A DNA stretch of 64,000 bases from Candidatus Jettenia caeni (GTDB lineage: Bacteria > Planctomycetota > Brocadiia > Brocadiales > Brocadiaceae): positions 1-64,000 of the forward strand of contig BAFH01000004.1 of the NCBI GenBank assembly GCA_000296795.1, in the 5' to 3' direction. Below the pieces are notes generated by a model. It worked only from the letters and a program-made list of their open reading frames with translations, ran no database searches and was not told the origin of the DNA. A program made the position numbers and the translations under genes. Positions 15,079-57,995 of the stretch are shown piece by piece; the first letter of the stretch is position 1, and each line of letters starts with the position of its first letter.

Positions 15079-18000
15079 TTAAGAAACTGGTTTAAACGCT
15101 GGTAAAACTACGCTAACCTTGGTAAACTTCCCTTCAACACTATCAATAATAAACCTGCCCTCATGGTCTCTGATAATACTATAACTGATGCTTAACCCCA
15201 GTCCTGTTCCCTTACCCCGGGGTTTTGTGGTATAAAACGGTTCTACTACTCTATCTCGTATCCTGGCAGGTATACCCGTGCCATGATCATAGAAGGTAAT
15301 CTTTACCGCCGGACGGTTATCTATCGTTGTTTCTTCCCCGATAATCTCCAGGATTTTATTCTCATGCACCTCTGGATATTTCTGGTTTAAGGCATATCGC
15401 GCATTACTGATAGCATTCAGAAAGACTTGTTGTATTTGCTGGGGATGTGCAATAATTTGGGGCAATTTTTGAGAAACATCTAACGTTATCGTAATACCCT
15501 CTTTTCGTAATTGTGCCTCTGTCAGAACAAGCGTATTTGTTATTATTTCATGAACACTGACAATGCTTTTTTTCTCCTTCGCATCACCCTGTCTTGCAAA
15601 GGAAAGAAGACTGCTGGTTATGTTCGCTATACGGTTAGCCTCTTTGATAATCCGGCCGGCAATATCCCTTTCCTTACTTCCTTCGCTGCTTTTATTCAAT
15701 AATATCTGGGCACAGTTAATAACACCGGTTATGGGGTTATTGATCTCGTGGGCTACACCCGCTGCCAGTTCACCTAATGATGCCAGATGTCTGGACCGTT
15801 CAGCCTCTCTTTGCAAGGTTATCTTTTCCGTGATATCCAGAAATACGCCTAAGATGCCAAGAACATTACCCTTTTCATCTTTTATCGGGGTTCTCACCAT
15901 ACGGACAATCAATGTCTTTCCATCTTTCATATATTCTTCTTCTCTATCATCTGTTTGCCCTGATTCCATAATCTGCTTATCTTCAGCTCTGTACTTCTCG
16001 GCAAGTTCTTTGGGAAAAAAATCATAATCGGTCTTTCCTGTGATCTCATCCGGTCTGATGTGAAAATCTCTTGCTAAATTCTCATTACAAGATACAAACC
16101 TGAGAGCTTTATCTTTAGAAAATATTCTTTGAGGAAGATTTTCAATAAGAAGCCGATATTTACTTTCGCTTGCGCGCAACACATCTTCAGCACGTCTGCG
16201 TTCGGTAATATCGCGGGCAATACCCAAAATCCCGATTACTGATCCTTTCCGGATTTGTGGAGTCACTTTAAATTCTCCAACCAGATAATTACCGGACTTG
16301 CTCAGAATACGCAATTCAAAAGCCGGAGGTATTTCCTTCTGATGAACACGTTGCAGCAACTTTAATGCGATGGACCTGTCATCAGGATGAACCAGGGGGA
16401 TAAACTGCTTATGCAGCCATTCCGTACGCAACCAACCCGTAATAGTCTCAAAAGCAGTATTGAGCGAGACAATAGTTCCGTCTACAGTAAGCGTGTAGAT
16501 TACATCCAGGGCATTCTCAACAAGGTTTCTGTATCGTTCTTCCGATTCATGCAACGACTCATCCGCCAGCTTATGCTCAGCCATTTCTTTCCGGAGTTTT
16601 TCATTTACCATGATAAGATCTGCTGTCCTTTTTGTCACTCGTTCCTCGAGAGACTTATTAAGCGCCTTCAATTCCTCCTCTATCTTTTTAAGCTCCGTAA
16701 CATCCTGAATTGTCCCGTTCATCTGAATTGGCTTTCCCGTAGTATCATAGATAACTTCCCCCTGACAGTGGGCAAAACGCACCGTGCCATCGGGCAAAGA
16801 TATCCGATGGTCAATGATAAAGGGTTTTCCCTCATATAAGGCCTCGTGAATAGACTTTCTCACATATTCTCTATCACCGGGATGAATAGCATTCATAAAT
16901 ATCTCATAACTTATATCAGATGTTTGCGGAGATAAACCAAAGATCCGATAGACCTCATCAGACCAATAGAGTATATTTTTTTCTTTATCCCATTCCCAGT
17001 TTCCCACATGAGCAATTCTTTGGGCATTGGAAAGACTGGCCTCGCTTTTGCGGAGCGCCGATTCCGCCCGTCTCTGTTCGGTAACGTCTCTGGCTGTGCC
17101 AATAGTTCCTATGATATTCCCCTTTTCATCCCGCAGGGGAAAATTTTTATATTCACAAACCCTTCCCGTATCTCTGAAAGAAAGTTCAAACAGAAGGCTT
17201 TCTCCCTTTACGGTTCTTGTACAGACATCTATTGCTTTTTTCAGGTTTTCTTCGTCAAAAAGAGGCGCAAATGGCTTTCCAAAAAATTCCTCAGGTTTGT
17301 GACCCGTTAATATTCCGAATATCTTATTTACAAAGAGAATATTTCCTCTGGTATCACAAATGTACGCAAGATCCCGTATCTCAGAAAATAATATCTCATA
17401 TTTTTTCAACCGTCCCTCTGTCTGCTTACGATTTTCGATTTCTCTCCGAAGTTCTTCATTGCCCTTCGCAAGCGACATTGTCCGATCATTCACCTGTTGT
17501 TCAAGGGATTCATTCAGCGTCCTCAGTTCATCCGCCATCCGCTTGTGCTCGGCAATCTTCCCGGCAAGTTTCTCTGCCATAGCATTAAAGCATGTGGCCA
17601 AAACGCCAAACTCATCTTTGCGATTCGCTTTTACCCGGAAATTCAATTCCCCCCATGCGAATTTTTCTGCTGCATCCGTTAAATCCTTGACTGGCCTTGA
17701 TGTCGAGACAGCAAAGACAGTCCCCGCGCCGGCGGCAGCGGCAATACCTATCATCCCCATAAACAAGGTAATAAAACCAAACTTTTTTAATGACGCAAAG
17801 GCCTCTGCCTTATCCATCTCTGCCAAAAGTATCCAGCCATATTCTGGTATATCTAATGCAGCGCCAACAGCGGGTATTCCTCTATAGTCTCTGTATATAC
17901 CAATATACTCTTTCTTACCCCTGATAATCTGGCGGACTGGCTCTGTATCTACCATCTGCCTGAGAGGCGCATTGTCGATAAATCTTGACTTCGTAAGCAT

Positions 18001-18660
18001 CATCTTGTCTCTATTGACCAGGTATAGCTCAATGGTCTCTCCCATTCCGGCACGGTTGATCGCAATCTCGCTCAATATGGTAAGGCTGTAGGTACAAATA
18101 ATGGAGCCAAGCGGCTCAGCGCTATATTCAGAGATAATTGGCGCAGAGATACATACGCAATCTTTATCAAAGTAAGAAAAGTAATGCGGCTGGTCAACGT
18201 CTACAGTATTGTGGCCTATATCTTGTGGAAATACGCCCTTATGAGAAATATCTTTGCCAATCAACTTCTCACTCGTGGATGTTGTAACCTTACCATGTTC
18301 ATCGAGAAGGGTTATTGCGATAAGTTGACGGCAGAGCGGAAGTTTATCCTCTATGAGGTATCTCTGTAAGGAAGCTGCTTCAGGCTGTTTGGAAATCCCT
18401 TCACGAACAACAGTCTCAAAAGCGCTTTTGATAAACTTGTCAGCGCTGAAATCTATGGCACGCGTCTTTTTTATCTCCATAAGAGACAGAAAATGAAGTC
18501 TTTTTGATTCTGCAAGCCCTTTTAGCTTCTCCAGAGTTTGATATTTCAGTGTATTTCTGATAGAGAAGTAGCAGGTAGTTGCAATTACGACAATAGGAAT
18601 AAGAGAAATACACAATACAAATATGAGCAACTTTTTCTTAATCGACAGGAATAGTCTCAT
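15079..18660 (-). CDS. Large multi-PAS sensor histidine kinase with Cache sensor
   Basis: About 1193 residues. Order: TM helix (about 5-28), extracellular double-Cache-like sensor (to about 290), second TM (about 295-318, FITLFMGMIGIAAAAGAGTVFAV), HAMP, coiled coil, four PAS domains (starting near EILFSEIRDLAYICD, IAHVGNWEWD, YRNLVENALDVIYTL and YRLLIENLPQRIFSKD), HisKA with phospho-acceptor His in GVAHEINNPITG, and HATPase (NARYAL, DHGTGIPARI, GKGTGLGLSIS). There is no receiver domain, so it must signal to a separate regulator. A TTG at 18681 is in frame, but the ATG at 18660 has AAGGA about 8 bases upstream. Its C-terminal half is closely similar to those of the kinases at 20284 and 50858. 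Confidence 0.9.
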   Translation of the reverse strand: MRLFLSIKKKLLIFVLCISLIPIVVIATTCYFSIRNTLKYQTLEKLKGLAESKRLHFLSLMEIKKTRAIDFSADKFIKSAFETVVREGISKQPEAASLQRYLIEDKLPLCRQLIAITLLDEHGKVTTSTSEKLIGKDISHKGVFPQDIGHNTVDVDQPHYFSYFDKDCVCISAPIISEYSAEPLGSIICTYSLTILSEIAINRAGMGETIELYLVNRDKMMLTKSRFIDNAPLRQMVDTEPVRQIIRGKKEYIGIYRDYRGIPAVGAALDIPEYGWILLAEMDKAEAFASLKKFGFITLFMGMIGIAAAAGAGTVFAVSTSRPVKDLTDAAEKFAWGELNFRVKANRKDEFGVLATCFNAMAEKLAGKIAEHKRMADELRTLNESLEQQVNDRTMSLAKGNEELRREIENRKQTEGRLKKYEILFSEIRDLAYICDTRGNILFVNKIFGILTGHKPEEFFGKPFAPLFDEENLKKAIDVCTRTVKGESLLFELSFRDTGRVCEYKNFPLRDEKGNIIGTIGTARDVTEQRRAESALRKSEASLSNAQRIAHVGNWEWDKEKNILYWSDEVYRIFGLSPQTSDISYEIFMNAIHPGDREYVRKSIHEALYEGKPFIIDHRISLPDGTVRFAHCQGEVIYDTTGKPIQMNGTIQDVTELKKIEEELKALNKSLEERVTKRTADLIMVNEKLRKEMAEHKLADESLHESEERYRNLVENALDVIYTLTVDGTIVSLNTAFETITGWLRTEWLHKQFIPLVHPDDRSIALKLLQRVHQKEIPPAFELRILSKSGNYLVGEFKVTPQIRKGSVIGILGIARDITERRRAEDVLRASESKYRLLIENLPQRIFSKDKALRFVSCNENLARDFHIRPDEITGKTDYDFFPKELAEKYRAEDKQIMESGQTDDREEEYMKDGKTLIVRMVRTPIKDEKGNVLGILGVFLDITEKITLQREAERSRHLASLGELAAGVAHEINNPITGVINCAQILLNKSSEGSKERDIAGRIIKEANRIANITSSLLSFARQGDAKEKKSIVSVHEIITNTLVLTEAQLRKEGITITLDVSQKLPQIIAHPQQIQQVFLNAISNARYALNQKYPEVHENKILEIIGEETTIDNRPAVKITFYDHGTGIPARIRDRVVEPFYTTKPRGKGTGLGLSISYSIIRDHEGRFIIDSVEGKFTKVSVVLPAFKPVS

Positions 18661-18905
18661 TTTGTAGATCCTTAAGGTCAAGCTATCCCAATGTTAAAGT
18701 AAGGAAAATATTCCTCATACTTGAAGATATGTCTGGCACAAATTAATGAATAAATATAAGAGTTTAGTATGGTAAATGTTAATTTGGTAATAAATAACTT
18801 CTTTATATATGAATAAGCAATCTTAATACCTTTATTAGTAATTAAAAGGTTTTATTTTTAGGAAGTATAAGTATAATTTACATAAATACTAAAAATAAGC
18901 CAGGG

Positions 18906-49600: not shown

Positions 49601-50797
49601 ATGAATAACCAGGCATCCCTTACAGCTTTTGAAGAGAATCTTATTCAGGAATGCTATTCTCGTTCACTGCAGTTACTAAAAGGCAATTCAACCTCTGCTG
49701 GTATTATTGCCTGTGCAAAATCCAGGAAGGCCGTGGACAGGTCATATGCCAGCATCTTTGGGCGTGATGCAGCTATCTGCTCTCTGGGTATGATTGCATC
49801 AAAAGACCCGGAGCTTGTACATAACGCGAAGATAAGCATCCTTACCCTGGCGCAGTACCAGGCGCCTAACGGACAAATTCCAAAGTATGTAAAACCTGAA
49901 CTCAAAGAGGTAGATTTCTGGTATTCAGGATGCATTGATGCCACGCTCTGGTGGCTCATTGCGGTAAACTTTTACGCCCGCACTTTCCCGGAAGAGCGGT
50001 TTACAGAACATCTGCGCACGACAATAGATCATGCCCTCAATTGGCTTTTTTGCCAGGAACATCAGGGACTATTTCTGTTGCAACAGAATGAAGCAAGTGA
50101 CTGGGCTGATATTATGCCAAGATCTGGCTTTGTACTTTACTCGAATGCCTTGTGGTACCATGTGAAAAAACTCTACAAGATCTCTACTGCTGATAAAACA
50201 AAACATTACTTTAAAACCGTATTCTTCCCCTTTGATAAAGCGGTTCCGGAACACCGGCGGGCACGCATCCTGGCTCACTATATCAGGAACAAGGCAAAAT
50301 GCAGCAATTTTTATCTCAGTTTTGTAAACTTCTCCTTTTGGGGAGAAGAGATAGATGTATTCGGTAATATCCTGAGCGCCATCTTTGGACTGGCTTACGC
50401 CTCCAAGGCATCACGCATAGCGGATACTATCCTTAGTTTAAAGGCTCACAGGCCCTATCCCATAAGAGTAACTCATACCCCCATACAGGAAAAAAGTCAG
50501 TTATGGCGCCCTTACATGCAACGGCACAAGCAGAATCTTCCGTATCAGTACCACAACGGTGGTATATGGCCGTTCGCCGGTGGCTTCTGGATAATACTGC
50601 TTATGAAGCTGGGAAGAAAAGGGCTTGCATGGAATGAACTGGGATGTCTTGCCGAGGCAAATAAAATCAATAACTGGGAGTTCAATGAATGGTTTCACGG
50701 AAAGACGGGCGAACCTATGGGCATGGCGGGTCAATCCTGGAACGCAGCTATGTTCATGCTGGCATTTCATGCCTTACAAGATAGTATTCATTTTTAA
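49601..50797 (+). CDS. (alpha/alpha)6-barrel glycoside hydrolase (invertase/amylo-glucosidase-like)
   Basis: 398 residues, cytoplasmic. Motifs of six-hairpin glycosidases: SYASIFGRDAAICSLGM, YQAPNGQIPKYV, DFWYSGCIDATLWWLIA, NEASDWADIMPRSGFVLYSNALWY and YQYHNGGIWPFAGGFW, ending EFNEWFHGKTGEPMGMAGQSWNAAMFMLAFHAL. The pattern is closest to neutral/alkaline invertase-like (GH100) and amylo-alpha-1,6-glucosidase-like enzymes; the DWAD and NEWF motifs probably supply the acidic catalytic pair. Substrate not determinable. Lies 69 bases after the DUF362 gene on the same strand. Confidence 0.8.
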   Translation: MNNQASLTAFEENLIQECYSRSLQLLKGNSTSAGIIACAKSRKAVDRSYASIFGRDAAICSLGMIASKDPELVHNAKISILTLAQYQAPNGQIPKYVKPELKEVDFWYSGCIDATLWWLIAVNFYARTFPEERFTEHLRTTIDHALNWLFCQEHQGLFLLQQNEASDWADIMPRSGFVLYSNALWYHVKKLYKISTADKTKHYFKTVFFPFDKAVPEHRRARILAHYIRNKAKCSNFYLSFVNFSFWGEEIDVFGNILSAIFGLAYASKASRIADTILSLKAHRPYPIRVTHTPIQEKSQLWRPYMQRHKQNLPYQYHNGGIWPFAGGFWIILLMKLGRKGLAWNELGCLAEANKINNWEFNEWFHGKTGEPMGMAGQSWNAAMFMLAFHALQDSIHF

Positions 50798-50857
50798 TTT
50801 ATTTTGTGTTGTTTTGGGATATAGTGCACACCGTGCCAATTTTTTATTTTTGTGTCC

Positions 50858-53800
50858 TCATGCTGTTTTTGATTGTGCCGGCAGGATAATAATAAGCTTG
50901 GTATATTCTCCTTCAACACTCTTAATGAAGAGCTTACCACCGTGATCTTTCACAATACCATGACTGATACTCAAGCCTAATCCAGTCCCTTTACCTGTAG
51001 GTTTTGTGGTAAAAAAGGGGTTCATTACTTTATCCCGTATGCGAGCCGGTATACCAGTGCCGTGATCGCAGATGGTGATCTTTATGTATGGATAATGATC
51101 TATTGTTATCTCTTCTCCTGAAATCTCAAGGATTTTATTACTATGGGTGCTAGGATACTTCTGATTCAGGGCATACCGTGCATTGTTAATAGCATTCACG
51201 AATACCTGTTGAATGAGTTGCCGGTTCGCAACAATTTCTGGCAGTTTTTGGGACACACCCAGCGTTAGCTTGATACCTTCCTTTCGCAATTGTGCACCTG
51301 TCAGTGCTAGCGTATCAGATAGTATTTCCTGTATGTTAGCAATGTTCTTTTCCTCTTTACTACCAGGTCTTGCAAAGAAGAGAAGGCTGTGGACGATCTT
51401 CGCTATCCGATCACCCTCCTTCAGAATACGGGTAGCAAGGTCTCTTTCTCTGCTTTTCTCCTGACTTTTATTAAACAAAATCTGTGCACAGTTAATAATA
51501 CCTGTGACGGGGTTATTGATCTCATGGGCGATGCCTGCCGCCAGTTCGCCTAATGATGCCAGATATTTAGAACGCTCTGCTTCCTTCTGCAAAACTATCT
51601 TCTCAGTAATATCTAAGTAAGAGCTTAATATGCCAATAGTATGGCCTTCTTCATCCTTTACGGGAACTTTAATCATATGTATGAAGGATTCTTTACCATT
51701 CATGAGATATTCTTGATCTCTATCTATTTTTTGCCCCGATTCTATAACTCTTCTATCATTATCCCGATATTTATCAGCAAGTTCTTTCGGAAAGAAGTTG
51801 TAATCGGTCTTTCCAGAGATTTCCTCTGCTTTAATATGAAGATCTTTGGCAAAATTTTCGTTGCAGGATATATAGATTGAGTTTTTATCTTTATAAAATA
51901 CTCTCTGAGGAAGGTTCTCAAGAAGTAGACGGTATTTACTTTCAGATTTCATAAGTGTATCTGCTGTTTGTTTATGCTTATCGATCTCAGTCTGTAGTTC
52001 TCTGTTTACTTTTGCCAGGTCTAATGTCCTCTCTGCTATACGCTCTTCAAGAGATTCATTGAGCGTTCTTAGCTCCTGTTCTATTTGTTTCAGCTTAGTA
52101 ATATCCGTCCCGTATAAGTTCACATAATCAGTAGTAGTAGTTACAGGCACAATGGTAAAAGAAAATATTTTGCCTCTCTGCCCGATTTCAACACGCCTTA
52201 TTATTGATCTCGTATTCAAAGCTTCTTTGATTATTTGAAATATAAAATCCGGTACCTGTTTGCCCATTTCACATTTCCAATCACGCAGAAAAGAACTACC
52301 CGATAGATTTGCATAAAGGACAGTGCCCTCTTTTGCAATACGTAATACAGGATTTGGATTCTCCGAAGAAAACCTTGATACACTTTTTATTTCATCCTCT
52401 ATACGCTTTTGTTGGGTAATGTCAATGACAAATCCAACAATTTCCTGTGGTTTGCCATGGGAATCATGCATTACCCTCATTTCATCATGTATCCAGCGAT
52501 ATGTTCCATCTTTGTGTTTAACACGGTATATAAGGATGTGCGACCCTTTTTCAATACCATACTTCATTTCATTCAGGGCACGAGGGATATCCTCTGGATG
52601 TATGTACTTAATCCAAAGTGAAGGATTTTCAATAAATTCATTCGGCTCATATCCCATCAACCTTTTAATATTACTACTAACAAATATGGTTTCACAATTA
52701 CCCGATGGTTTGCAACTATAGATAACCGCAGGGCTATTCGTAAGGAGGTATTCCAACCGGGATTGGGTTTCGATAAGTTTCTTTTTTAGCATCTTCCGCT
52801 CAGTGATCTCCTGAATTGTTCCGTTCATCTGAATCGGCTTGCCAGTATGATCAAAAACGACCTCAGCCTGTGTATGAATACTACGTTCAGAGCCATCTGG
52901 TTGAATTATGCGTACATCAATACTGTAAGGCTTCCCCTCATAAAAGGCCTCGTTAACAGATTTTTTAAAGAATTCTCTATCATCGGGATGAATTCGATCC
53001 AGAACGGCCTCATTGGTTGCATTAAATGACTGTGGTGTTAAACCAAAGATACGATAATGCTCATCAGACCAGTGTATTTTATTTTTTACTATATCCCAAT
53101 CCCAGCTTCCCACATGGGCAATCCTTTGTGCATTTGCAAGACTTGCCTCACTTTTTCTCAGCGTATCTGATAGAGATTTTTGTCTTTTTATTTCATTCTC
53201 AAGGTTCTCAGCCATGATATTAAACCTGCTTGCCAGGGTACCAACTTCATCCTTACCCGTTACCTTTATTCGATACTCTAACCCTCCTTGTGAAAATCTC
53301 TCTGTTGCGTGTGTTAACTCCTCAATAGGCCTGGTCATCGAAACAGCATAGATGATTCCCAAGATAGTCACTGTACCAGCCATACCTATCCAGAGAATTG
53401 ATACAATGATACTGATCGTTTTTATTGGTGCAAATGCCTCTGATGTATCCATCTCTGCCAAAAGCGTCCAGCCATATTCAGGCATAAACATCGAAGCGCC
53501 CAAAACAGATTTCCCCTGATAGTTTTTATAAATACCAACCATCTCCTCACCACTTTTCATACTCCTATGAATAGGCTCTGTATCTACTATCTGTTTAAGT
53601 GATGCATTCTCCATAAACCTTGATTCAGTAAGCATTGTCTTATCCCTGGTAACCAGGTATACCTCGCCAGTTTTTCCTAATCCAACATGGTTGACTGTAA
53701 TCTCGTTTAGGGTTGAAAGGGGATAGGCAAGGATCAAGACACCAAGAGGTGCATCATGATGTTTATGGTAAATGGGCGCAGAGACAAAGAAGCAATAGGT

Positions 53801-54350
53801 AGGTAGGTAGGTAGGTAGGTAGGTAGGTAGGTAGGTAGGTAGGTAGGTAGGTAGGTAGGTAGGGTGATGTGGGCTGACCAACGTATGATTCTCCATATCC
53901 TTGCTTCATCCCTTGCACAAAGGCGTCCTGGCCAGACATATCCTTACCAAGTAATTTTTCATTCGTGGATGAGATAACCTTGCCATACCTATCCACAATA
54001 ACTACTGCGACAAAACGCCTGTGCAGGGGCATTTTATTCTCAGAGAGATGTCTATCTAAACCAAGTGTCATTCTTCGATCAGCATCTCCTCCATGAACAA
54101 TTGTCTTAACCTTCGTTCTTATATACCCATCAGTGCTAAAATCTGCTACACGTATCTTTACTCTTTCCATAAAAGCAAGGACGTGCTGCTCTTTTGATTC
54201 TGCAACGGCCTTCAACTTCTCGGTAACTTGATACGTGAGAATACTTTTTACGTGAAGGCAGTATATCGAGGTAATGATAGCAATAGGTATGAGAGAGATA
54301 GAAAGGCCGAATACAATTAATTTACCCTTTATTGATCGAAATGGATTCAT
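50858..54350 (-). CDS. Cache/multi-PAS sensor histidine kinase split by a (TAGG)17 tract
   Basis: Two overlapping frames form one kinase. Frame 1 from ATG 54350 gives TM1 (KLIVFGLSISLIPIAIITSIYC) and the first half of the Cache sensor, then runs out of frame after the tetranucleotide tract at 53863-53796, with its stop at 53763. Frame 2 (53896-50858) resumes FFVSAPIYHKHHDAPLGVLILAYPLSTLNEI, then TM2, HAMP, four PAS-type domains, HisKA (GIAHEINNPVTG) and HATPase (NARYAL, DHGTGIPARIRD, GKGTGLGLSIS). Losing one 4-base unit (16 copies) joins them into 1162 codons. The repeats encode (PTYL)n. The intact kinase at 15079 aligns across the junction, with no tract. AAGG lies about 9 bases before ATG 54350. 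The current state should be off, or truncated from internal starts. Confidence 0.9.
53796..53863. repeat. Tetranucleotide microsatellite (TAGG)17
   Basis: Seventeen perfect tandem TAGG units (68 bases); CCTA on the coding strand. Because 68 is not a multiple of 3, unit gain or loss changes the frame: 16 and 19 units join the two kinase frames, 17 (present) and 18 do not. Confidence 0.98.
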
Positions 54351-54680
54351 TTTAAAAACCTTATAAGATGGTAATGTTTTTGGAATGTATACTTGGAGTG
54401 TTTTAGGAACCGGGTTTTGTGCTGATTTTTCACTATTCTATACTCATTAAAAATGTCTGCACTATTGCACAGAAAAAAGTATACCCAATTTAAGTATTAC
54501 TTTCTAAAATGATTATATTATACGGAATAATTCCGTTGTAGTAAAATTCAAATATAACACTTCGTTCAATGATATTCGTAATACGTAAGTGTTTTGAAAA
54601 AGGAGAAACCTGGGAAGCCTTATCAAAGGAGAAATACAGGAATTGTTAATCCCCTTTCCTCATTTATCTTTATAACAGCC
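54351..54680. other. Upstream region of the split kinase
   Basis: About 330 bases, AT-rich, between the kinase start and the end of the octaheme cytochrome gene, both on the minus strand. No repeat, riboswitch or clear terminator recognised; should contain the kinase promoter. Confidence 0.4.
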
Positions 54681-56273
54681 TCATTTCCCCCATTCTTTCC
54701 GCTTCCATCCCAGCAACATATCGGTATATTCTCCATGCTTCCAGAATGGATAAGCGGTATGCTTTATGCCAAGTTTCTCTTCAATTTCTGCAAAACGTTT
54801 AAGCTTACTGGCTTCATCCTTGATCTGAATAAGCCATCGATCCTGAGCCCACTCCCAATAACCATAGATTGGACTGTAATAGGCATTGTGGGATTTGGCC
54901 TTGTAAATAGCGCCGACAATATCAACTAACATCTCATAGGTTAACCTTTCGATATTGGAGATATTATACTTCCGCATCTCTCCTTTCCCCGGTAAAAGGC
55001 TAAATATCGTATGGCCTCTGGAATCGGGGGCAAGATCGTCAGGCATGGGATCAATGAGATTATCCTTGTATAAGTTCATTACAATACCCATTGCTTCACG
55101 ATATTTCGTAAAACTTAATTTTACTGCCTCATCCATAGCCTCTAAGTGGTCCTTAGCAAATCTGGGTGAATGACAGCCTTTACAGGCATTTATCCATGCA
55201 TCACGAGTTGCCTTGTAACGATAGGCACCCCGATCTGCAAGAGAAGTACCCATATAGGTATAAACAGTAGACATCCTGGTAACATTATGTTCTCCTTCGG
55301 GCATATGGCAATACGCACACGTTGGAGTCACATAATTTTTGGCATTGAGAGGTTTTGTCCAATCCCAGGTTTGCCCTTCACCCTGATATATCATGCCATG
55401 ATACGACTGCATATACATCTCATATTCATATTGCTCGGGGCCGGAATGACACACCGCGCAACTGGTAGGTTTTCTTGCTTCAGCCGTAGAAAAACGGTGC
55501 CGTGTATGACAGCCATCACACCGGTTCTCGGCAATGGCATGGCAGGCCAAACAGGCAGTTGTCTCTTCGGCGGGTTTCTCCATTTGACATCCCTGGTCTA
55601 TAAGCTCAAGATGATAGGCGTGGGCGTGCGAGCCTCTACCACCACCATCACGATGCCCTTTGAGTTGTTTCTCATGACATTCGCCACAGATAGTATATGA
55701 AGGCATTACAAGCCTCTCATGATTCTTCCCATGACACCGGTCACAACCAACAACCTCCTTACCTTCAGATGGCGTTCCATGCTTGCTTTGCTTCCATTGG
55801 GTCACAATGCCCGGACTTTCTCCCCTATGACAGGTGACACATTGCTCATGAGTATATTCACCGGTTACCGTACTACCGGGATGAAAGACATCACTATTAA
55901 AATAATATGCAGGGTCATACCATCGTATTACAGGGAGAAATTTATAGAGATGCCCTAATCTTCCCTTCCCCGGAAAGAGTTCTCCCGGACCAGTATAGTA
56001 GCTTGCAAGACCACCTGTCTTATAGACGTCCCCTGAATCATCCGCTCCAACCTTCTCTTCCAGAAATTCGGCCATTTCGTGGCGGAATCTCATATTACCG
56101 GGTATTCTGTGTGGTGTTGCAGTTGTCTTAACTGATGGTACATCAACAATTGGAGAATTTACATTTTCAGATTGAAGTTGAGAAGAATAGGTAGTGGTTT
56201 GAGGAATAAAAAAACTGTATATAAAGAATAAAGAGGTGAAGAATTGCTTTGTAGGAAAATACAGTTTATTCAT
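54681..56273 (-). CDS. Octaheme c-type cytochrome, hydroxylamine-oxidoreductase family
   Basis: 530 residues from the chosen ATG, with an N-terminal signal peptide (FFTSLFFIYSFFIPQTTTYS). Eight CxxCH motifs in order: CVTCH, CDRCH, CGECH, CLACH, CDGCH, CAVCH, CAYCH, CKGCH. The spacing, CHMPEGEHNVTRMS, CKGCHSPRFAKDHLE and the C-terminal helical part (YYSPIYGYWEW...) match the HAO family that oxidises or reduces small N-compounds in anammox and nitrifying bacteria. Tyrosines near the expected haem-cross-linking site are present, but I cannot decide whether the P460-forming Tyr is conserved, which separates oxidative from reductive types. The ORF to 56315 would start inside gcvH; ATG 56273 lies 22 bases after the gcvH stop, so it is co-transcribed with it. 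Confidence 0.9.
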   Translation of the reverse strand: MNKLYFPTKQFFTSLFFIYSFFIPQTTTYSSQLQSENVNSPIVDVPSVKTTATPHRIPGNMRFRHEMAEFLEEKVGADDSGDVYKTGGLASYYTGPGELFPGKGRLGHLYKFLPVIRWYDPAYYFNSDVFHPGSTVTGEYTHEQCVTCHRGESPGIVTQWKQSKHGTPSEGKEVVGCDRCHGKNHERLVMPSYTICGECHEKQLKGHRDGGGRGSHAHAYHLELIDQGCQMEKPAEETTACLACHAIAENRCDGCHTRHRFSTAEARKPTSCAVCHSGPEQYEYEMYMQSYHGMIYQGEGQTWDWTKPLNAKNYVTPTCAYCHMPEGEHNVTRMSTVYTYMGTSLADRGAYRYKATRDAWINACKGCHSPRFAKDHLEAMDEAVKLSFTKYREAMGIVMNLYKDNLIDPMPDDLAPDSRGHTIFSLLPGKGEMRKYNISNIERLTYEMLVDIVGAIYKAKSHNAYYSPIYGYWEWAQDRWLIQIKDEASKLKRFAEIEEKLGIKHTAYPFWKHGEYTDMLLGWKRKEWGK

Positions 56274-56295
56274 ACAAAATATTTCATTATTAATA

Positions 56296-56685
56296 TTAAT
56301 GCCCAAATCCGGCAACAGTCTCGTATTGGCCTGAGTTTAACAGTTTATTGAACTCATTTGGGTCTGATATCTCCATATGAAAAAACCACCCTTCACCATA
56401 AGGGTCTTCATTCACAAGCTGTGGCTCTTCCTGGACTTTTTGATTAATTTTAGTAACTTTACCTGACAGAGGAGAATAAATATCATAAGCAGCCTTCACA
56501 GACTCTACAACTGCGCAGGGCGCGCCCATCTTCACTTCTTTTCCTATCGATGGTAATTCAACGAAGACGATATCTTTCAATTGCTTCTGCGCATAGTCAG
56601 TAATACCAACAACTGCTTCACGGGGGCCTATCTTCTTCGCCCACTCATGTGTCTTGGTATAAAATAATTCATTTGGTATATTCAT
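56296..56685 (-). CDS. gcvH: Glycine cleavage system H protein
   Basis: 129 residues. Lipoyl carrier shuttling the aminomethyl group between P, T and L proteins. The lipoyl-lysine motif VVESVKAAYDIYSPLSG is present (Lys about 62), with YTKTHEW at the N-terminus, KDIVFVELPSIGKEV and NEDPYGEGWFFHMEIS as in the family. The C-terminal 15 residues extend slightly beyond the usual end. Flanked by gcvT upstream and the octaheme cytochrome downstream. Confidence 0.95.
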   Translation of the reverse strand: MNIPNELFYTKTHEWAKKIGPREAVVGITDYAQKQLKDIVFVELPSIGKEVKMGAPCAVVESVKAAYDIYSPLSGKVTKINQKVQEEPQLVNEDPYGEGWFFHMEISDPNEFNKLLNSGQYETVAGFGH

Positions 56686-56769
56686 TGATTTAAACTTCCT
56701 TTTTGTAAATGGTGAGAGCAGAACTCCATATGCATCAAACTAAAATGTGGAAACGGTGAAGAATAACAA

Positions 56770-56880
56770 ACCACCCGTAACCCCCCTTGATCCCCCTTTA
56801 AAAAAGGGGGAAATGGTGAATGTTTTAGAAAAGCGGAAAAAAAAGAAGTCTCCCTTTAGAAAAGGGGAAATCCCTCGTTC
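56770..56880. repeat. G/C-skewed palindromic repeat between gcvT and gcvH
   Basis: TAACCCCCCTTGATCCCCCTTTAAAAAAGGGGGAAATGG, then a degenerate TTTAGAAAAG unit run ending CCCTTTAGAAAAGGGGAAATCCCTCG. The same CCCTCGTTTCC/TTCTTTTCTAAACTTATC tail also follows the copy near 47040-47070. Confidence 0.8.
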
Positions 56881-56894
56881 CTTCTTTTCTAAAC

Positions 56895-57995
56895 TTATCT
56901 TTCTTTTTTAATACTGCGGTAAAACGGGATCTTCACAACACGTGCATTATAGTTATTATTTCTGATCTGAATTTGAAACTCCTCTCCTGTTTTGGCATAC
57001 TGAGTTTTTACAAAACACAGGCCAACATTCTTGTGTGTGGAGGGGCTGAAGGATCCACTGGTAACCTTACCAATACTCTCATTCCCTTTTAATACCGGAT
57101 AACCATGACGTGGAATGCCGAGGTCTGTCATCTCAAATCCCACCATTTTTCTGACGGTCCCCTTCTCCTTCTGTCTTGACAGGGCCTCTCTGCCGATAAA
57201 ATCACCTTTGTCAAACTTTACCGTCCAGTCGATAATCGTTTCAAGAGGGGTTATTGTTTCATCCATATCATTCCCATATAACAAAAGACACGCCTCTAAG
57301 CGAAGCGTATCCCTTGCGCCAAGGCCTATTGGATTCAACCCATTCTGCTTATTTTTTTCCAAAAGCAGATCCCATAGTCTCACAGCTTGTTTCGCATCCA
57401 CAAATATCTCAAAACCATCTTCTCCGGTGTACCCCGTTCTGGAAATTACTATTTGTGTATCATCCCATAGAAAATTATCAAAGGAAAATCTTCTGAGATG
57501 ATCAAGTTTGTAAGATAAGGTAGCTTCAAGCATGCGACCCGATAAAGGGCCCTGGAATGAGATAAGGGATACACGATCAGTAACATCCTTCATTTCTAAT
57601 GGTTGGTAGTTTGTTGCTTGTTTTTGTAACCACAAAAAGTCCTTTTCTCTATTCCCGCAGTTTACTACAAGCATGAAGCTTTTATCATGCCATTTGTAAA
57701 CAAGGATATCATCGATAATTCCACCTTGCTCGTTGCATATAGGCGTGTAGAGAGCTTGTTTATCTGCCAGCCGAACTACATTATTTGTGATAACGTGTTG
57801 AATAAAGGGAAGCGCTTTATCTCCTGAAATCTCGAATCTTCCCATATGAGACACATCGAAAAGACCGGCATTTTCCCTAACACAAAGGTGTTCATTAATA
57901 ATGCTGCTATAGTGGAGAGGCATGGAATAGTCATGGAAAGATACCATCGTTCCATTGAGTTTAAGGTGAGTATCGTAGAGTGAGGTCTTTTTCAT
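56895..57995 (-). CDS. gcvT: Glycine cleavage system T protein (aminomethyltransferase)
   Basis: 366 residues. Transfers the methylene group from the H protein to tetrahydrofolate, releasing ammonia. Motifs: TSLYDTHLKLNGTMVSFHDYSMPLHY, VRENAGLFDVSHMGRFEISG (with catalytic-type Asp region), GGIIDDILVYK, RTGYTGEDGFEIF and GLGARDTLRLEACLLLYGNDMDE, followed by the C-terminal barrel (GSFSPSTHKNVGLCFV). No gcvP lies in the window. Starts 18 bases after the stop of the YkgJ-type gene. Confidence 0.95.
   Translation of the reverse strand: MKKTSLYDTHLKLNGTMVSFHDYSMPLHYSSIINEHLCVRENAGLFDVSHMGRFEISGDKALPFIQHVITNNVVRLADKQALYTPICNEQGGIIDDILVYKWHDKSFMLVVNCGNREKDFLWLQKQATNYQPLEMKDVTDRVSLISFQGPLSGRMLEATLSYKLDHLRRFSFDNFLWDDTQIVISRTGYTGEDGFEIFVDAKQAVRLWDLLLEKNKQNGLNPIGLGARDTLRLEACLLLYGNDMDETITPLETIIDWTVKFDKGDFIGREALSRQKEKGTVRKMVGFEMTDLGIPRHGYPVLKGNESIGKVTSGSFSPSTHKNVGLCFVKTQYAKTGEEFQIQIRNNNYNARVVKIPFYRSIKKER

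Follow-up and report, generated by a model that had tools for sequence, protein, structure and literature searches.

The window analysed here, a 64,000-nucleotide stretch of DNA from Candidatus Jettenia caeni (contig BAFH01000004.1), carries on its minus strand a sensor histidine kinase gene at 50858..54350, which starts with an ATG at 54350 and stops at 50858. An AAGG lies a few bases 5' of this ATG, and we take it to be a candidate ribosome site. The whole gene encodes a two-part dCache sensor, HAMP and PAS domains, HisKA and HATPase_c, and its frame is broken by a TAGG repeat tract at 53796..53863 (minus strand), the proposed switch. As assembled, it is read as two minus-strand ORFs: one of 195 aa (53763..54350), with the start helix, the distal dCache half, PTYL repeats and a stop, and a downstream one of 1012 aa in another frame (50858..53896), with the remaining dCache and all of the signalling domains. 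In the Pfam search the short ORF matched the first part of dCache_1, and the long ORF matched its second part together with HAMP, PAS, HisKA and HATPase_c; the two ORFs are therefore halves of one membrane sensor kinase. The gene has the domains of a dCache sensor histidine kinase (dCache_1, HAMP, HisKA, HATPase_c), divided at n = 17 units between two frames. An earlier note on this DNA had located the tract inside the Cache sensor, and dCache_1 does match both gene halves; the match of the N-terminal half, at 24.9 bits, is below the curated whole-domain cut-off of 45, as expected for half a domain.

Positions 53796-53863 consist of 17 perfect TAGG units with no interruption, exactly the number first counted. 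The coding strand reads (CCTA)17, and each of the three tract frames translates to a PTYL peptide repeat. When the gene was translated from the ATG at 54350 with differing numbers of units, n = 17 gave a stop after 195 residues, and an open full-length protein was obtained at n = 13 (1158 aa), n = 16 (1162 aa) and n = 19 (1166 aa), and likewise at n = 1, 4, 7 and 10. The rule for a full kinase is n = 1 mod 3, and with every unit number tested from 0 to 22 that breaks this rule, translation ended at residue 175-210. Restoration of the frame by loss of one unit or gain of two, as the earlier note had claimed, is thus borne out, and so is a (PTYL)n peptide in each in-frame state; the 1162 codons given there hold for the loss of one unit, and the gain of two yields 1166.

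A relaxed pattern of four TAGG units with up to three mismatches matched the window 15 times, always inside the tract; dinucleotide shuffles gave a mean of 0.22 matches, and none of 100 shuffles reached 15. Repeat scans took in samples of about 10% of the window's genome (G000) and of a sister genome (G002). The second-longest perfect tetranucleotide run in the 464 kb sampled from G000 (the window and 20 further stretches) was 3 units, and the other perfect tetranucleotide runs in the 400 kb from G002 were likewise of 3 units or fewer. The kinase gene thus shows one hallmark of a contingency locus: its ORF contains a tandem repeat far above chance length, in units whose size three does not divide.

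The comparison within the genus covered three genomes, one per species: G000, G001 and G002. In G002, which is a single contig, the kinase was found at C1:1332388-1333466 with 90% DNA identity across the tested 1.1 kb, and a (TAGG)12 tract occupies the site matching the (TAGG)17 of the window. The repeat number at the matching site differs (17 vs 12) between the only two genomes of the genus that bear the gene. The G002 kinase also requires n = 1 mod 3, and at n = 12 it is translated for 198 residues before a stop; the two assemblies occupy the two different wrong frames, and neither holds an in-frame (ON) allele. The edges of the tract differ as well, with GTGA after the tract on one side in the window and TTTT before it, on the other side, in G002, and the distance between common anchors is 72 bases in the window and 52 in G002. 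In G001 the matching site is empty: contig C27 joins the matches of window positions 50790 and 56293 with about 112 bases between them, and both the kinase and the adjoining HAO-like cytochrome are absent there (window 50791-56292). Tracts of at least six TAGG units turned up in 2 of 33 family genomes and in 2 of a phylum-wide sample of 392, in every case at the kinase site. Relatives of the Cache domain are widespread, with a match in 32 of the 33 family genomes. The host had been called anammox-like, which agrees with its named relatives, Ca. Brocadia and Ca. Loosdrechtia.

The window and G002 kinase genes were compared codon by codon, using a codon alignment that permits whole-codon gaps only. 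Past the tract, the 977 aligned codons contained 212 substitutions and no stops, with one open frame per species. Substitutions at the three codon positions numbered 62, 57 and 93 (chi-square p 0.0046), and dN was 0.060, dS 0.140 and omega 0.424 (bootstrap interval 0.314-0.58). When 212 random substitutions were placed in a neutral simulation, a mean of 5.6 stops arose and only 57 of 20,000 runs were free of stops. In a nucleotide alignment, where the frame is unforced, the gap runs past the tract were all of 3 bases as far as about base 2950 of 3493, and two one-base gaps immediately 5' of the tract cancelled one another. The 161 codons before the tract contained no stops and had an omega of 0.473, with an interval of 0.235-0.955 that makes this weak evidence for that part. 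Since there is no stop and no net frameshift past the tract, and the omega interval is 0.314-0.58, the reading frame there has been maintained since the species split, although both assemblies read OFF. This is not the picture of a pseudogene, as 977 codons contain no stops or frame-breaking indels and the omega interval excludes 1; whole-unit changes restore the frame of a gene that is otherwise intact and under selection. The argument from selection presumes a long tract in the common ancestor, the alternative being separate, late growth from a common seed.

For comparison, omega was 0.211 between the paralogue in the window and the corresponding gene of G002, 0.278 for a second intact pair, and 0.067-0.139 for five neighbour genes, so that the kinase value is about twice that of the two intact paralogue pairs and well above that of the five neighbours. 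A further paralogue pair (L087/L095) was dropped from this set; its members were poor counterparts, with 711 codons, a dS of 2.49, 21 gap runs and a bootstrap interval for omega that extends below zero. The weaker constraint relative to the paralogues fits part-time use of the kinase and also fits a slowly relaxing constraint. One member of the kinase family in G000 (L085, C3:1007185-1010117) serves as an internal control for decay: internal segments have been deleted from it and a single base inserted, and its G002 counterpart is an intact ORF of 1219 codons. A transposase-like ORF lies near this decayed gene. Divergence along the window kinase (50858-53795) from G002 is mosaic, with the last third 97-99% identical and the middle 86-88%, and this uneven identity is a hint of recombination, making past exchange possible.

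A paralogous dCache-HAMP-PAS kinase at 15079..18660 (minus strand, likely ATG at 18660) lacks the tract, as had been noted previously; its homologous site reads QPHYFSYFDKDC. After identical rows were merged and matches not spanning the site excluded, the PTYL repeat was absent from all 45 distinct homologue rows, and those homologues whose DNA was read had at most one CCTA unit there. The typical homologue sequence at the site is GQPHYSPYLDANC, and its Pro-Tyr-Leu codons, a few changes away from CCCTACCTA, are a likely seed of the tract. At the upstream tract edge (53864..53875, minus strand) lie the S-P codons of SPYL, where homologues encode S-P-Y-L/F, and the tract probably grew from a Pro-Tyr-Leu seed at this edge.

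A PDB sequence search with a 33-row Cache alignment found no match at an E value of 0.01, and the sensor fold was therefore placed through a model of the paralogue. In the model of the paralogue sensor, built from six sequences with middling confidence (mean pLDDT 74, pTM 0.64), a two-part alpha/beta sensor is preceded by a long helix at the start and followed by another at the end, and its Foldseek matches include dCache sensors such as DctB (3by9). The modelled site comprises residues 157-168, lies in the first subdomain between its strands 154-156 and 168-176, and falls in the worst region of the model (confidence below 50 across segment 141-165). Homologues differ in length at this site, and a (PTYL)n loop of about 20 residues would be tolerable in principle. 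The earlier note also proposed that sensor geometry varies with the tract; the length of (PTYL)n does differ between in-frame states, but in the paralogue model the site is a low-confidence loop and not a rigid linker, so that varying geometry is plausible but weak.

About 200 bases 5' of the paralogous kinase lies a (TTATAC)n hexanucleotide, with 2 copies in the window (18865-18876), 8 in G001 and 5 in G002 (L091:4142-4189; L096:4309-4338). The TATACT within it resembles a -10 box, and its copy number might tune transcription of that kinase.

The upstream neighbour of the kinase on the same strand, 330 bases away, is an HAO-like multihaem cytochrome gene (54681..56315, minus strand). Both genes are present in G000 and G002 and both are absent at the site in G001, and such a neighbour suggests that the kinase may have a role in nitrogen or redox respiration. 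An intergenic segment between GcvH and GcvT (window 56720-56906) has many dispersed copies in all three genomes of the genus. The 10% sample of G000 contained one other short repeat that lies where an ORF begins and whose unit length is no multiple of three, (CGTGT)5 at C3:801,558 (L157:1558-1600). It lies directly 3' of an ATG, in a signal peptide, and a GGGAGG site-like sequence accompanies the ATG; 3 or 6 units bring the ATG into frame with a secreted-protein ORF, and 5 units do not. No ortholog of this gene was found in G001 or G002, where the match is limited to a dispersed repeat upstream. This second candidate contingency locus strengthens the case for such loci. G000 also carries a perfect nonanucleotide array, (TGGCTTGTT)23, at L172:9315 (C1:69315), which has several open frames on both strands and is probably intergenic.

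Taken from its sequence, the (TAGG)n tract in the kinase is probably a simple-sequence contingency (phase-variation) locus. Slipped-strand mispairing during replication would add or remove whole TAGG units, each shifting the frame by one base, and alleles with n = 1 mod 3 would give the full kinase. With any other n, translation would stop shortly past the tract to leave a short half-sensor without kinase domains. Since the frame follows this rule, a population would be expected to mix cells with and without the sensor kinase, and ON cells would differ in the loop length of the membrane-distal sensor subdomain. We infer both reversible ON/OFF switching and a role for the loop. The phase-variation reading was already that of the earlier note, and it gains independent support from the 12 units in the sister species, the confinement of the tract to the kinase locus and the frame kept by selection, set against the lack of an ON allele in the assemblies. 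Counting against it, G000 and G002 are both OFF, which has a chance of 4/9 if the three frame classes are equally likely, and the third species is without the gene. A wider reading, which we hold tentatively and regard as somewhat less than an even prospect, is that the genus may hedge its bets via hypermutable repeats, with random kinase switching, a loop-tuned sensor and further loci such as (CGTGT)5.

The main rival is that the gene is decaying and that the tract is a passive microsatellite, expanded while function was being lost or once it had gone. Both assemblies that bear the gene are out of frame, the omega of 0.42 exceeds that of the intact paralogues, G000 contains a decayed kinase of the same family and G001 is without the kinase and its neighbour, all as decay would have it. 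However, decay has to be reconciled with 977 codons free of stops or net frameshift since the species split with the tract present in both species, with a stop-free outcome in only 57 of 20,000 neutral simulations and with an omega interval that excludes 1. We consider decay unlikely on this account, and the counter-argument would fall if the long tracts had arisen separately and late in both lineages.

Two further explanations were weighed. The consensus may be an artefact, with most cells in frame, 17 units chosen or miscounted, and the tract only a variable in-frame loop; a single unit number was assembled per genome, and sequencing is known to disturb repeat-tract counts (PMC6889271). This would need an error in two separate assemblies, whose tracts are 5 units apart in length and do not share the same edges, and we think it very improbable. 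Alternatively, the OFF allele may still yield kinase, either because the ribosome or the RNA polymerase slips on the tract, along which the codon set repeats every 12 bases, or through an internal start of the 1012-aa ORF, which has an ATG at 53896 in the downstream frame. Against an internal start, the open downstream frame of G002 has its first ATG 96 codons in, past the tract, and loss of the first transmembrane helix would leave the product with no proper sensor; of the explanations weighed here we give this one the least credence.

The kinase resembles DctB-type dCache sensor histidine kinases in its sensor fold, as judged from the paralogue model and 3by9, and in its domain order, and differs from them in having the tract. 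Clostridioides difficile cmrRST likewise represents phase-variable signal transduction with a sensor kinase. That system switches through site-specific DNA inversion and not through repeats. The contingency genes of the pathogen Haemophilus influenzae encode methyltransferases and surface structures and are not known to be homologous to the present kinase. What they share with it is a tetranucleotide tract within the ORF, and most of the H. influenzae tracts have at least 15 units, longer than composition predicts (PMC4235727). We also considered Helicobacter pylori ArsS as a parallel and set it aside, as the excerpted ArsRS texts treat target genes and make no mention of an arsS tract. Judged from titles and the beginnings of abstracts, literature searches brought up no account of such a switch for anammox bacteria or planctomycetes, nor of a phase-variable histidine kinase with tetranucleotide repeats of this sort.

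Long simple repeats in bacteria are reported to accompany reliance on eukaryotic hosts (PMC4060949). If the contingency reading is true, such loci would serve host-free, slow-growing bacteria too, and enrichment cultures taken as uniform would contain cells that differ in one signalling state or more; if the bet-hedging reading is also true, switching would occur within reactor or sediment populations of host-free, slow-growing chemolithotrophs. As in Bordetella pertussis bvgS, where 6 vs 7 cytosines decide the state of the kinase (PMC1891110), a repeat-length frameshift within a sensor kinase gene would switch the kinase off. Unlike bvgS, which has a mononucleotide tract and regulates virulence in a host-bound pathogen, the present gene has a 17-unit tetranucleotide in its sensor domain and belongs to a free-living anammox bacterium. 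The mechanism is already known, chiefly in pathogens, and what would be new is its setting, a sensor kinase in an unexpected organism, a free-living anammox planctomycete.
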